DNA from: Gemmatimonadota bacterium
Lineage (GTDB): Bacteria; Gemmatimonadota; Gemmatimonadetes; Gemmatimonadales; Gemmatimonadaceae
Direction: 5' to 3'
DNA length: 64,000 nucleotides
NCBI GenBank assembly: GCA_026387935.1
Contig: JAPLKU010000019.1
Location: 124,001-188,000, forward strand
The notes below the pieces were generated by a model. That model made no database searches. It saw nothing but the letters and a program-made list of their open reading frames with translations, and was not told where the DNA came from. How positions within the stretch are numbered: the stretch's first letter is position 1; every line of letters starts with the position of its first letter. The position numbers were made by a program, and so were the translations under genes. Shown piece after piece: positions 38,873 through 43,910 of this stretch.

Positions 38873-40096
38873 TTGAACGTGAAGGGACGCCGCGCGGCCG
38901 TTCGTTTCATCTTCATCACCGTCGTCCTCGACGTGATTGCTATGGGGATCATCATCCCCGTACTGCCGTCGCTGATCCGTGAGTTCGTGCACGGCGACAT
39001 GGTGCGAACGTCCACGTACTACGGCGTCTTTGGCACCGTGTGGGCCCTGATGCAGTTCTTCTGCTCGCCGATCATCGGCATGCTGTCGGACCGGTTTGGC
39101 CGCCGCCGCGTGATTCTCCTCGCGAACTTCGGGTTGGGACTCGACTACATCGTGATGGCGCTCGCACCGTCAATCGGCTGGCTGTTTGTTGGGCGAATTA
39201 TTTCGGGCATCACCGGGGCGAGCTGGACCACGGCGGGCGCGTACATCGCTGATGTGACGGAGCCCGAGCATCGTGCCAAGGGGTTCGGCATACTCGGCGC
39301 GGCGTGGGGCGTGGGGTTTGTACTCGGCCCCGCCCTGGGTGGCGTGCTTGGCGGAGTGGATCCGCGGTTGCCGTTCTGGACGGCGGCCGTGCTGACGTTG
39401 GCGAACGCGATGTACGGATTGTTCGTACTACCGGAATCGCTGCCGCTGGAGAAACGCACGGCGTTCAACTGGAAGCGCGCGAATCCGGTGGGCGCGCTCA
39501 CGTTGCTGCGCTCGCATCACGAACTCCTTGGCCTCGCGGCAGTCAACGCGATCTACTTTCTCGCGCACCAGGCCTTTCCGAGTATGTTCGTACTCTACGC
39601 CGGCTATCGATATGGCTGGGGGCCGCGCGCGGTGGGGCTCACCCTCGCGGTGGTTGGGGTGTGCACGGCGATCGTGCAGGCCGGCCTCATCCACAAGGCG
39701 GTGGTCCGGTTCGGCGAGCGTCGCTGCCTCGTGGCCGGCCTCGCGTTTGGTGTGGTGTCGTTCTCCGTGTGGGGCCTTGCGTCCGTCGGATGGGTGGGCC
39801 TGTTTGCCATTCCGTTCGGATCGATGATGGGACTCTTCAGTCCATCGGCGCAGGGGCTGATGTCCAAACGCGTCAGCGCATCGGAGCAGGGGCAGCTCCA
39901 GGGCGCGGCCGCGAGCATCATGGGCATCACGGGTATGATTGGCCCGGCGCTCTTCACGATGACCTTCGCCGCGTTCATTGATGGCAAAGGCTTTCAGTTG
40001 CCCGGCGCACCCTTCTTTCTGGCCGCCGCACTGGCCACGCTGGCCATGCTGGTCGCGTGGCGAGTGACGCGACCGCAGGCTGCGACGCCCGCCTGA
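38873..40096 (+). CDS. MFS transporter of the TetA-like type
   Basis: A 407-residue 12-segment drug:H+ antiporter-type MFS protein. The A motif is clear (GMLSDRFGRRRVILLANFG), as are the entry segment MGIIIPVLPSLIREFV and the motif C-like GVGFVLGPALGGVLGG. The start is TTG at 38873 or GTG at 38879; neither has a good ribosome site. Similarity is to the Tet/TCR group in general, and it should not be taken as a tetracycline resistance gene. Confidence 0.85.
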   Translation: MNVKGRRAAVRFIFITVVLDVIAMGIIIPVLPSLIREFVHGDMVRTSTYYGVFGTVWALMQFFCSPIIGMLSDRFGRRRVILLANFGLGLDYIVMALAPSIGWLFVGRIISGITGASWTTAGAYIADVTEPEHRAKGFGILGAAWGVGFVLGPALGGVLGGVDPRLPFWTAAVLTLANAMYGLFVLPESLPLEKRTAFNWKRANPVGALTLLRSHHELLGLAAVNAIYFLAHQAFPSMFVLYAGYRYGWGPRAVGLTLAVVGVCTAIVQAGLIHKAVVRFGERRCLVAGLAFGVVSFSVWGLASVGWVGLFAIPFGSMMGLFSPSAQGLMSKRVSASEQGQLQGAAASIMGITGMIGPALFTMTFAAFIDGKGFQLPGAPFFLAAALATLAMLVAWRVTRPQAATPA

Positions 40097-40118
40097 GTTA
40101 CGCCGGCGCGCGACGCGC

Positions 40119-40124
40119 TTGACA
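40119..40124 (+). promoter_or_regulatory. Candidate -35 box of the panB leader
   Basis: TTGACA at 40119-40124 is a perfect -35 hexamer. A weak -10 (TAGGTT, 40143-40148) lies 18 bases downstream. A start near 40155 would give a leader of about 170 nt that includes both terminator-like hairpins. Confidence 0.45.
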
Positions 40125-40176
40125 TTCAGCGCGGGGCAAGGATAGGTTATTTCTACAATTGAAGTCGTGGTCATTT

Positions 40177-40267
40177 GCCGCCTATTGCAGCCACGTAAAA
40201 TAAATGCTAAAAATGCGACCGCCGGGCGGCGTTCCTTACTGCCCCGGCGATTTTGTTTATAGGCGGC
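40177..40267 (+). promoter_or_regulatory. Candidate structured RNA in the panB leader
   Basis: GCCGCCTAT (40177-40185) is perfectly complementary to ATAGGCGGC (40259-40267), forming a 9-bp closing stem around 73 nt. Inside lies a second stem, CGCCGGG (40220-40226) with CCCGGCG (40243-40249), followed by ATTTTGTTTAT. The 3' side of the closing stem shares its last three bases with the 5' arm of the terminator at 40265-40304, so the two could be mutually exclusive. This is the layout of a leader switch; the ligand is unknown. Known panB leader elements such as the pan RNA motif should be compared. Confidence 0.5.
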
Positions 40268-40304
40268 CGTGTCTCCTCGAATTCCTGGAGACTCGGCCTT
40301 TTTT
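40265..40304 (+). terminator. Intrinsic terminator immediately upstream of panB
   Basis: GGCCGTGTCTCC (40265-40276) pairs with GGAGACTCGGCC (40287-40298) with one mismatch, followed by TTTTTT (40299-40304). The run of T ends 20 bases before the panB ATG, leaving no room for a promoter between. panB transcription must therefore read through it, which makes it an attenuator. Confidence 0.75.
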
Positions 40305-40324
40305 CGTTTGACGGAGGAGTGGGG

Positions 40325-41182
40325 ATGGGAGAAGCACAGGCGGCACGGAAGGTCACGACGCACACGTTGCGAGAGTTGAAGGCGAAGGGACAGCGGGCGG
40401 TGTGCGTCACCGCGTACGACTACCCGACTGCGACGTTCGCCGACCGCGCCGGAGTGGACCTGATTCTCGTCGGCGATTCGGCGGCCATGACCGTCCTCGG
40501 CCACGCCAACACACTGTCCATCACGATGACGGAAATGCTCGTGTTCGCTCGCGCGGTTGCGCGCGGCGCCAAGCGGGCATTCGTCCTCGGCGACCTGCCT
40601 TTCCTTTCGTATCAAGTCTCCGATGCCGATGCGATCACGAACGCCGGCGCATTTCTCGCGGCCGGTTGCGATGCCGTGAAGTGCGAAGGTGGGCGCCGAG
40701 TGGCGCCGCGCGTTCGCGCGATGACGGACGCCGGCATCGCCGTGATGGGACACATCGGACTCACGCCGCAGGCGCTCGGCCAACAGGGTGGCTATCGCGT
40801 GCAGGGGAAGACGCGCGCGCAGACCGCGGTGATTCTCGATGACGCGAAAGCGCTCGAAGATGCCGGCGCCTTCGCGATTCTCCTCGAAGCCCTTCCGCCG
40901 GAATCGGCCGCGTTCGTTCGCGAGAACCTCTCGATTCCGGTGTACGGCATTGGTGCCGGCGCGCAGGTGGACGGCCAGCTCGTCATTTCGCACGACCTGC
41001 TCGGCAACTTCGTGGGTGAAGTGAAGCCGCGTTTTGTGTCGCGGCTCGCGAGCGTTGATGCCGTCGTGACCGAAGCATTCAGCACCTATGCCGACCAGGT
41101 GCGCTCCGCCCAGTTCCCGGCGCCGGAGCACTGGTACTCGCTCGACTCCAAAGAACTCCTCTCACTCGCCGCCGCTTCCTGA
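40325..41182 (+). CDS. panB: 3-methyl-2-oxobutanoate hydroxymethyltransferase
   Basis: A 285-residue enzyme of pantothenate synthesis that transfers a hydroxymethyl group from 5,10-methylene-THF to 2-oxoisovalerate. Family features: ITAYDYPTATFADRAG-like start (here VTAYDYPTATFADRAG), LILVGDSAAMTVLGHANT, LPFLSYQ, AVKCEGGRRVAPRVRAMTDA and GHIGLTPQALGQQGGYRVQG. GGAGGAG lies 5-11 bases before the ATG. It heads an operon with a sulfur-carrier protein, MoeZ-like enzyme and threonine synthase. The leader carries an attenuator (40265-40304). Confidence 0.95.
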   Translation: MGEAQAARKVTTHTLRELKAKGQRAVCVTAYDYPTATFADRAGVDLILVGDSAAMTVLGHANTLSITMTEMLVFARAVARGAKRAFVLGDLPFLSYQVSDADAITNAGAFLAAGCDAVKCEGGRRVAPRVRAMTDAGIAVMGHIGLTPQALGQQGGYRVQGKTRAQTAVILDDAKALEDAGAFAILLEALPPESAAFVRENLSIPVYGIGAGAQVDGQLVISHDLLGNFVGEVKPRFVSRLASVDAVVTEAFSTYADQVRSAQFPAPEHWYSLDSKELLSLAAAS

Positions 41183-41192
41183 GACCATACAT

Positions 41193-41465
41193 ATGCCAGC
41201 CACACTCTTTCTGCCCGCCATTCTCGCCAAGCTGGCCGACGCCAAACAGTTCGAAGTCAGCGGCGACACGGTTGGCGAACTCGTCTCCGACGCCGCCACG
41301 CGCTTTCCTGCGCTCGGCACCCGCCTTCGCGACCCGAATGGCGAACCGTACGCGTTCGTCACATTCTACCTGAACGATGAAGACATCCGGTTTCATGGCG
41401 GGTTTGGCGCCAAGGTCAGCGACGGAGACGAACTCACCGTCGTACCCGCCATTGCGGGGGGCTGA
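41193..41465 (+). CDS. MoaD/ThiS/CysO-type sulfur carrier protein
   Basis: A 90-residue beta-grasp protein ending in Ala-Gly-Gly, the C-terminus that is adenylated and turned into a thiocarboxylate. It has the family pattern: FLPAILAKLADAKQFEVSG, VGELVSDAATRFPAL, and SDGDELTVVPAIAGG. By itself it could serve molybdopterin, thiamin, cysteine or methionine synthesis. Because it lies between panB and a MoeZ-like enzyme and next to threonine synthase, not with moaE, I favour the CysO/amino-acid type. It starts 10 bases after the panB stop; the next gene follows at +3. Confidence 0.88.
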   Translation: MPATLFLPAILAKLADAKQFEVSGDTVGELVSDAATRFPALGTRLRDPNGEPYAFVTFYLNDEDIRFHGGFGAKVSDGDELTVVPAIAGG

Positions 41466-41468
41466 GTA

Positions 41469-42620
41469 GTGGAACTCCCAACCCTCACGCACGAAGAGAT
41501 TCTTCGCTACAGCCGGCATCTGATTCTGCCGGACGTCGGCGTGGAAGGCCAGCGCAAGCTCAAGGCCGCGCGCGTGCTGCTCATTGGCGCCGGTGGGCTC
41601 GGCTCGCCACTCGCGTTGTACCTCTCCGCCGCCGGTGTGGGCCACATCGGCCTCGTGGACTTCGACGTTGTCGATGTCACCAACCTGCAGCGTCAGGTGT
41701 TGCACGGCACCAGCGACGTGGGCACACCAAAGATCGCGTCGGCGCGCAAGCGAATCGCGGAAATCAATCCGCACGTCGAGTTGACCACCTACGAGACGCC
41801 GCTGAACTCGACCAACGCGCTCGAGATCTTCAAGGATTACGACATTGTCGTTGACGGCACCGACAACTTCCCCACGCGCTACCTCGTGAACGACGCGTGC
41901 GTGCTGCTCGGTATTCCGAACGTGTACGGCAGCATCTATCGGTTCGAGGGTCAGGCGTCGGTGTTCGCGACACAGGACGGGCCGTGCTATCGCTGCCTCT
42001 ATCCCGAGCCGCCACCGCCGGGACTGGTACCGAGTTGCGCCGAAGGCGGCGTGCTCGGCGTCCTGCCGGGGCTCGTCGGCACGCTGCAGGCGACCGAAAC
42101 GATCAAGCTCATTCTGGGCATCGGCGAATCACTCGCCGGGCGGCTGCTCCTCATCGACGCGCTCGGCGCAAACTTCCGCACCGTGAAAGTGCGCAAGGAC
42201 CCGAACTGTCCCGTGTGCGGCACGCACGAAATCACGACGCTCATTGATTACGAACAATTCTGTGGTTCACCACATGTGGGAGGAGACCCGAAAGTGAGTT
42301 TCAACGTTCCGGAAATCACGCCGACGGACGCCGCCGCGCGACTGGCGAAGGGCGAGATCGACATCGTGGACGTGCGCGAGCCGCACGAACTGCAGATCGC
42401 GAAGTATCCGAAGGTGACGGCCATTCCGCTTGGCCAGCTCGTCGACCGCATCGCCGAATTGCCGCTCGATCGTGATCTCGTGCTCGCGTGTCGGTCTGGC
42501 GTGCGCAGCGCGAAGGCCGTGCAGCAGCTGCAGGCGGCAGGGTTCACCCGCGTGTCGAACCTCGCGGGCGGGATTCTGCGGTGGATCGACGAGGTCGACC
42601 CGTCGCAGCCGAAGTACTGA
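41469..42620 (+). CDS. MoeB/MoeZ-type adenylyltransferase-sulfurtransferase
   Basis: A 383-residue E1-like enzyme that adenylates the carrier C-terminus and loads sulfur on it. The adenylating domain shows LLIGAGGLGSPLALYLSAAG, FDVVDVTNLQRQ and the zinc CxxC pairs CYRCLYP and CPVCGTH; the C-terminal rhodanese domain (about residues 285-380) has the active Cys in VLACRSGVRSAKAVQQL. This is the MoeZ two-domain layout of Mycobacterium and MOCS3. The GTG start lies 3 bases after the carrier gene. Confidence 0.92.
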   Translation: MELPTLTHEEILRYSRHLILPDVGVEGQRKLKAARVLLIGAGGLGSPLALYLSAAGVGHIGLVDFDVVDVTNLQRQVLHGTSDVGTPKIASARKRIAEINPHVELTTYETPLNSTNALEIFKDYDIVVDGTDNFPTRYLVNDACVLLGIPNVYGSIYRFEGQASVFATQDGPCYRCLYPEPPPPGLVPSCAEGGVLGVLPGLVGTLQATETIKLILGIGESLAGRLLLIDALGANFRTVKVRKDPNCPVCGTHEITTLIDYEQFCGSPHVGGDPKVSFNVPEITPTDAAARLAKGEIDIVDVREPHELQIAKYPKVTAIPLGQLVDRIAELPLDRDLVLACRSGVRSAKAVQQLQAAGFTRVSNLAGGILRWIDEVDPSQPKY

Positions 42621-42653
42621 CAAGCAATACGAAAAACACCAACTTCAGCGACC

Positions 42654-43910
42654 ATGACGCAGGCAACGATCGCGCGCGAAAGCGCACTGGCAGTTCTCCC
42701 GCAGCACTGCAAACTCTGCGGTACCGAGTATCCCGCCGAGGCGAATGCCATCTGCGGTGAATGCCTGGGGCCGCTCGAGCCGACGTATCCGAAGGATCGG
42801 GTCCTCCCCGACCGTGAGGACATCGCACGGCGCGCGCCGAATCTCTGGCGATACAAGGAGTGGCTGCCGTTCATTGGCGAGCCGGTGTACTCAAAGGAGA
42901 CGGGTTTCACGCCGCTCATTGAAGTGCCGCGCCTCGCCGAGAAACTCGGTGTCGCGCGAGCGTGGGTGAAGAACGATGCTGTGGCGCAGCCGACGCTTTC
43001 GTTCAAGGATCGTGTGGTCACCACTGCGATCAACGCGGCGCACGCGCTGGGCTTGGGCGTGATTGGTTGCGCGAGCACGGGGAACCTCGCGAATGCCGTG
43101 GCGGCACACGCCGCCCGCGCGGGACTGCCGGCGTGGATTTTCATTCCGGAGGATCTCGAGCCGGCGAAGGTGATCAACACGGCGGTGTTCGGCGCGAATC
43201 TCGTGCGGGTACGCGGCCACTATGACGATGTGAATCGTCTCTGTTCGCAGCTCGCAGACCGGTTTGGCTGGGGCATGGTGAACGTGAACCTGCGCGGCTA
43301 TTACGGCGAAGGGTCGAAGACAATGGCGTTTGAAATCGCCGAGCAGCTCGGGTGGCGCCTGCCGACGGCCGTCGTGGCGCCGATGGCCGGCGGGTCGCTG
43401 ATCACCAAGCTCCGAAAGGGATTCGGCGAGTTCCAGGCGGCCGAGCTCGTAAGTGGTGCGAGCCCGCGACTTTACGGCGCGCAGGCGAGTGGGTGCGCGC
43501 CCATCGTGCGGCTCGTGGAGTCTGGTGCGGCAACGCTGACGCCCGAAATTCCGAACACGATTGCGCGGTCGATTGCAATCGGGAATCCGGCCGATGGACC
43601 CTTTGCCGCGCGCGCGATGGTGGAGAGCGGCGGCTGGGGCGCGCATGTTTCTGACGAAGAGATCGTGTCCGCGATTCGGTTGCTGGCCGAGACGACGGGC
43701 GTGTTCACCGAGACGGCGGGCGGCGCGACGGTGGGCGCGGCGCTCAAGCTGGCGGCTCAGGGACGCCTCACGCGCGACGATGAAGTGGTCATCTGCATTA
43801 CCGGCAACGGGCTCAAGACGACGGACGTGGTGCGGGATGTGCTGCCGCAGGCGCCGATCGTGGATGCGAAGGTGCGTGAGGTGGCGGCGCTGGTGGCGGC
43901 GAGGTCGTAG
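42654..43910 (+). CDS. thrC: Threonine synthase-like PLP enzyme with zinc ribbon
   Basis: A 418-residue fold-type II PLP enzyme. The N-terminus has a zinc-ribbon-like pair of CxxC motifs (CKLCGTEYPAEANAICGECL), the PLP lysine is in PTLSFKDRVVTTA, and the asparagine/Ser loop is IGCASTGNLANAVAAHA. Threonine synthase converts O-phosphohomoserine to threonine. It lies 33 bases after the MoeZ-like gene in the same operon, an arrangement that suggests a link with protein-bound thiocarboxylate, for example to form homocysteine or cysteine. That second role is inference. Confidence 0.87.
   Translation: MTQATIARESALAVLPQHCKLCGTEYPAEANAICGECLGPLEPTYPKDRVLPDREDIARRAPNLWRYKEWLPFIGEPVYSKETGFTPLIEVPRLAEKLGVARAWVKNDAVAQPTLSFKDRVVTTAINAAHALGLGVIGCASTGNLANAVAAHAARAGLPAWIFIPEDLEPAKVINTAVFGANLVRVRGHYDDVNRLCSQLADRFGWGMVNVNLRGYYGEGSKTMAFEIAEQLGWRLPTAVVAPMAGGSLITKLRKGFGEFQAAELVSGASPRLYGAQASGCAPIVRLVESGAATLTPEIPNTIARSIAIGNPADGPFAARAMVESGGWGAHVSDEEIVSAIRLLAETTGVFTETAGGATVGAALKLAAQGRLTRDDEVVICITGNGLKTTDVVRDVLPQAPIVDAKVREVAALVAARS

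Follow-up and report, generated by a model that had tools for sequence, protein, structure and literature searches.

What does the leader of a panB-like gene sense when it carries two terminator hairpins ahead of the start codon? The question is raised by an operon in the window, as the entire 64,000-nt stretch of Gemmatimonadaceae DNA analysed here is called. The operon comprises four genes:

40325..41182, forward strand: panB-like gene (PanB-II clade), ATG at 40325 (PF02548, 328 bits; TIGR00222, 275 bits, cut-off 207.6)
41193..41465, forward strand: MoaD/ThiS-like sulfur-carrier gene (PF02597, 43 bits)
41469..42620, forward strand: MoeB/ThiF-rhodanese gene (PF00899 and PF00581)
42654..43910, forward strand: threonine synthase-like gene (ThrC, PALP fold; TIGR00260, 243.8 bits, cut-off 167)

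A preliminary description had read the region in front of panB as a riboswitch-type leader, with pantothenate, an amino acid or sulfur as suggested ligands. None of these ligands proved right, the class being SAM-II; the architecture itself stands, with a SAM-II match and the same layout in seven same-genus leaders. The leader is a SAM-II member with an unusual tandem platform and an unusual target.

A SAM-II aptamer in front of panB

The leader contains the following elements:

40119..40148, forward strand: promoter (TTGACA 40119-40124, 18-nt spacer, TAGGTT 40143-40148)
40157..40231, forward strand: SAM-II (SAM_alpha, RF00521) aptamer, 35.3 bits, gathering score 36, E about 1e-6
40166..40171, forward strand: P1 5' strand CGTGGT, pairs with 40190-40195
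40177..40185, forward strand: L1 switching segment (GCCGCCTAT), 5' strand of both antiterminators, overlaps P2
40179..40181, forward strand: P2 pseudoknot 5' strand CGC in loop L1, pairs with 40215-40217
40190..40195, forward strand: P1 3' strand GCCACG, pairs with 40166-40171
40215..40217, forward strand: P2 pseudoknot 3' strand GCG, pairs with 40179-40181
40220..40258, forward strand: terminator 1, inner hairpin 40220-40249 (about -16 kcal/mol) and T-rich tail 40250-40258 (ATTTTGTTT after the hairpin)
40225..40230, forward strand: antiterminator 1 partner GGCGGC inside terminator 1, pairs with L1 40177-40182
40259..40267, forward strand: antiterminator 2 partner ATAGGCGGC, 3' arm of the long stem, 9/9 complementary
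40265..40305, forward strand: terminator 2, stem 40265-40298 (about -20.5 kcal/mol), then TTTTTT

Judged by its sequence, the segment 40157-40231 almost certainly belongs to the SAM-II class, and the window RNA is accordingly predicted to bind SAM. The match came from an E-value-based Rfam scan of the leader with SAM riboswitch models among those suggested beforehand; at gathering thresholds Rfam gives zero matches across the whole window, the aptamer scoring 0.7 bits below the gathering score. Its L1 is shorter than in the RF00521 consensus, and the SAM-II long loops model (RF01726), of the same class, reaches 30.9 bits, well below its gathering score of 44. The pairing itself was counted in an alignment of 72 leaders. 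P1, the stem that closes a loop, is paired in 98.8% of cells and the three pairs of P2 in 93%; the outer P2 pair is C-G in 31 sequences and G-C in 28, and 29 sequences are changed on both sides. For P1 and P2 together, 96.9% of cells are paired vs. 92.5% in shuffles (0/500) and 31 cells are changed on both sides vs. 15 (0/500). Paired cells, double changes and covariation score all exceed those of every one of the 500 shuffles and of all slid versions.

The class is widespread in the family: at E ≤0.01, SAM-II is found in 167 of 179 Gemmatimonadaceae genomes and in 0 of 14 control genomes. The best copy of the source genome (G000:C1:18819, 49.5 bits), ahead of the window copy in second place, lies directly upstream of two genes that we take, from reading their protein sequences, to be metF and metH. 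The element is found in each of the seven leaders of close PanB relatives from the same genus and in panB leaders of other genera; among these matches and the metF copy of the source genome, several exceed the gathering score. Further family copies precede MetH-, MetX-, MetY- and MetK-like, homoserine dehydrogenase and ThrC genes, in the last two cases directly. Family copies are thus located at methionine and SAM genes, as is used as a criterion for SAM-II, and the window target would have its place in the same metabolism.

Other copies have different neighbors. SAM-II precedes genes resembling those of sulfate/sulfite assimilation (elongation-factor-like CysN, sulfite reductase-like) in leaders L142, L147 and L164. 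In L117, L153 and L159 the element is a SAM-II-like variant whose L1 is longer (GTCGCGATTTGAnCGGCCAGCTTGTGGCGCGAC); the downstream genes there are not methionine-like, and one has AAA-ATPase-like features. Divergent copies precede metK-like genes in L114 and L157; their L1 is GAAGCGA, with no clear complement in the terminator.

Published examples of SAM-II come from alpha-Proteobacteria and a small number of other groups (PMC1273637, PMC2258182). Commonly, terminators follow P2 and a near-consensus promoter lies immediately upstream of P1 (PMC1273637). The window leader resembles RF00521, the metA element, in this arrangement of promoter and terminator as well as in P1, the P2 pseudoknot and the conserved ATTTG and GCTAAA segments (PMC1273637); it differs in its host, Gemmatimonadota instead of alpha-Proteobacteria, and in its tandem terminators, panB-like target and shorter L1. 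No report of SAM-II was found in the Gemmatimonad literature.

The promoter scored under the cut-off of a simple promoter scan, and a simple terminator scan detected neither leader hairpin. The same pattern, TTGAC(A), 18-nt spacer and TANNNT, also precedes SAM-II in relatives L010, L012-L015 and L020. Because it lies upstream, at 40119-40148, the aptamer and both terminators are placed on one transcript. A transcription start downstream of 40304 would have counted against a riboswitch; the conserved promoter lies upstream of that position.

Loop L1 and the two terminators

The tandem terminators proposed earlier are present, terminator 1 throughout the genus with counterparts across the family, and a second terminator in all seven same-genus leaders. 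The long stem between 40177-40185 and 40259-40267 is likewise perfectly complementary over its 9 bp, and bases 40265-40267 are common to this stem and the 5' arm of terminator 2. The stem had been described as the mutually exclusive structure of the leader. Exclusivity is supported, but the stem is one of two pairings of L1, and the other, to terminator 1, is the one seen family-wide; the long stem to terminator 2 is confined to the source genus. The first pairing (antiterminator 1) consists of an 8-bp helix, 40176-40183/40224-40231, plus 5 bp, 40185-40189/40214-40218. For RNAs ending at 40236-40244 it is the minimum-energy fold, and for those ending at 40270-40295 the long stem (antiterminator 2) is; each antiterminator is thus favored shortly before its terminator is complete. 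In fold energies, the terminators outcompete the antiterminators once they are complete.

The pairing of L1 with terminator 1 was evaluated in 93 leaders with 37 L1 types, permuted 2000 times. The mean duplex energy with the leader's own L1 is -9.74 kcal/mol vs. -8.40 (sd 0.25) when permuted (0/2000), a figure that overstates independence, as L1 types track lineage. Typical L1/terminator pairs are GCCGCC-GGCGGC, GCCGCG-CGCGGC and GGAGGC-GCCTCC. Several L1 types, including ACGGCAAC, AACGGCAAC and GCGGCGTA, have little or no excess complementarity, so that the mechanism need not apply to every leader. By column counting, 68% of the cells of the L1-terminator helix are paired, and the covariation score rises when the helix is slid by +1; a gap misplaced by the aligner in the GCCGCG leaders is the probable reason. 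Covariation in related leaders, which had been proposed as a check, is therefore found for P2 and for L1 with terminator 1, but not for the long stem to terminator 2. In six of the seven genus leaders the 7-bp core of this stem does not vary, and AGGCGGC at the foot of terminator 2 faces an invariant L1 (GCCGCCT). In the seventh leader, L011, the foot keeps GCGGC.

The leader very probably acts as a SAM-II riboswitch that turns its operon OFF by transcription attenuation, the direction being taken over from known SAM-II switches. Transcription would begin at about 40154-40158. In the SAM-bound RNA, P1 and the P2 pseudoknot would form and occupy L1; terminator 1 and then terminator 2 would fold, and RNA polymerase would halt upstream of panB. 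Without SAM, the first partner of L1 would be terminator 1, in its 5' side and loop (antiterminator 1); if terminator 1 had folded but transcription continued, L1 would turn instead to the foot of terminator 2 and form antiterminator 2. The panB-moaD-moeB-thrC operon would then be transcribed. Because the P2 strand sits within L1, SAM binding should exclude either antiterminator, and an OFF switch that checks twice is to be expected from this exclusivity; the order of folding and the competitive strength of each antiterminator are what we infer from the folds. Attenuation driven by L1 at terminator 1 is the likely part of this scheme, while the odds for a role of antiterminator 2 are only slightly better than even. 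A close parallel is the metZ SAM-II switch of Sinorhizobium meliloti, for which SAM-induced termination of transcription is also predicted and the terminated sRNA rises at high SAM (PMC9373788); it has one terminator instead of two, and its gene is metZ (PMC9373788). The control of expression by SAM-II has so far seen little experimental work (PMC2258182, PMC9373788).

A rival account, which appears less likely, accepts the aptamer and regards the long stem as incidental. Regulation would proceed via terminator 1 alone, and terminator 2 would be a constitutive attenuator or, in a variant, an insulator blocking read-through from the upstream MFS gene. In leaders from outside the genus, terminator 1 is the only one seen, and it is with this one that L1 covaries; moreover, antiterminator 2 displaces just 3 bp of terminator 2, which prevails at full length (-52.4 vs. 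-48.3 kcal/mol). Conversely, the retention of AGGCGGC in six of the seven genus leaders amid variable flanking bases, and the range of RNA ends over which the long stem is the minimum-energy fold, argue for the second check.

Taken by itself, without homology, the long stem is weak evidence: a perfect stem of at least 9 bp occurs in 5.8% of 500 dinucleotide-shuffled leaders, and the fold z-score of the leader against shuffles is modest (-1.45). These values would suit plain intergenic terminators of the upstream MFS gene joined by a chance stem, with no riboswitch. Such a reading is nevertheless highly improbable: the leader is homologous to SAM-II, a conserved promoter precedes the hairpins, and PanB-II genes in many genomes have leaders arranged in the same way. 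It is the SAM-II match and the seven same-genus leaders of identical layout that raise the long stem above chance.

The PanB-II clade and a possible homoserine route

In a tree of 98 PanB proteins, the window PanB falls in a Gemmatimonadota clade of 40 rows (support 98/92), PanB-II, apart from most other Gemmatimonadota PanB, which adjoin PanC genes. PanC was near PanB-II in none of the clade loci examined. Many of these loci have the order SAM-II, aminotransferase, panB, thrC, thrB, moaD, moeB; some have the riboswitch between the aminotransferase and panB. A search of PanB loci with a model built from the leaders found SAM-II in 28 of the PanB-II loci from named genomes, in one additional genome, and in 0 of the other PanB loci searched. 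PanC (PF02569) was not found in the source genome nor in 16 of 17 congeners, and is present in 9 of 14 controls. PanD was absent from most of the genome sample and was therefore uninformative. The target gene appears to serve threonine and methionine synthesis rather than vitamin B5 synthesis, and its annotation as PanB is probably wrong. Control by pantothenate, through the pan motif of panB/panC/panD leaders, which precedes panB operons in other bacteria (PMC2864571), or through a pantothenate sensor, would fit a first gene annotated PanB but is most improbable, given the clade not found beside PanC, a source genome without PanC, and a scan for the motif, as recommended in the preliminary description, that gave no Rfam match up to E 10 in 40060-40360 and no likeness in sequence or structure.

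Homoserine dehydrogenase (PF00742) was not found in the source genome or in most PanB-II genomes. Among genomes at least 90% complete, it is present in 2 of 15 with PanB-II vs. 36 of 53 without (Fisher p 2.4e-4, uncorrected for relatedness). One low-completeness exception, G010, has its only aspartokinase-homoserine dehydrogenase at L278, on contig C196, whose GC content is 53% vs. 65-67% in the other contigs, which suggests contamination. A search with a MetX model gave 0 genomes above the model cut-off and was set aside as evidence. ThrB and a second ThrC are present in the source genome.

From these patterns of gene content and neighborhood we tentatively propose, at somewhat less than even odds, that SAM-controlled PanB-II is a natural 4-hydroxy-2-oxobutanoate synthase that feeds homoserine synthesis and replaces homoserine dehydrogenase. 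PanB-II would add the one-carbon unit of methylene-tetrahydrofolate to pyruvate, giving 4-hydroxy-2-oxobutanoate, and the aminotransferase often encoded just before panB would convert this to homoserine; no aminotransferase is adjacent to the window panB operon. From homoserine, ThrB, ThrC and the MoaD-MoeB sulfur carrier would lead on to threonine and, perhaps, to homocysteine. The reverse of the 4-hydroxy-2-oxobutanoate step is catalysed by engineered variants of PanB. Such a role of PanB-II would explain a SAM riboswitch upstream of the operon. Three congeners (G002, G014, G016) have neither homoserine dehydrogenase nor any PanB and keep thrB and thrC, so that PanB-II alone does not account for the loss of the dehydrogenase. 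4-Hydroxy-2-oxobutanoate has been described as absent from canonical metabolism and is used in an engineered one-carbon cycle (PMC8719824); no report of a native PanB-based homoserine route was found in the open-access literature.

At 40325-43910, genes for a ThrC-like protein, a MoaD-like carrier and a MoeB-rhodanese protein lie together within the SAM-II regulon of the family. By analogy with CysM-CysO, they could provide a thiocarboxylate route to homocysteine.

The locus places a known SAM sensor upstream of an unexpected gene, and comparison across leaders suggests a candidate for the antiterminator strand within the aptamer. For the family, the SAM-II regulon points to a possible natural homoserine route through 4-hydroxy-2-oxobutanoate.
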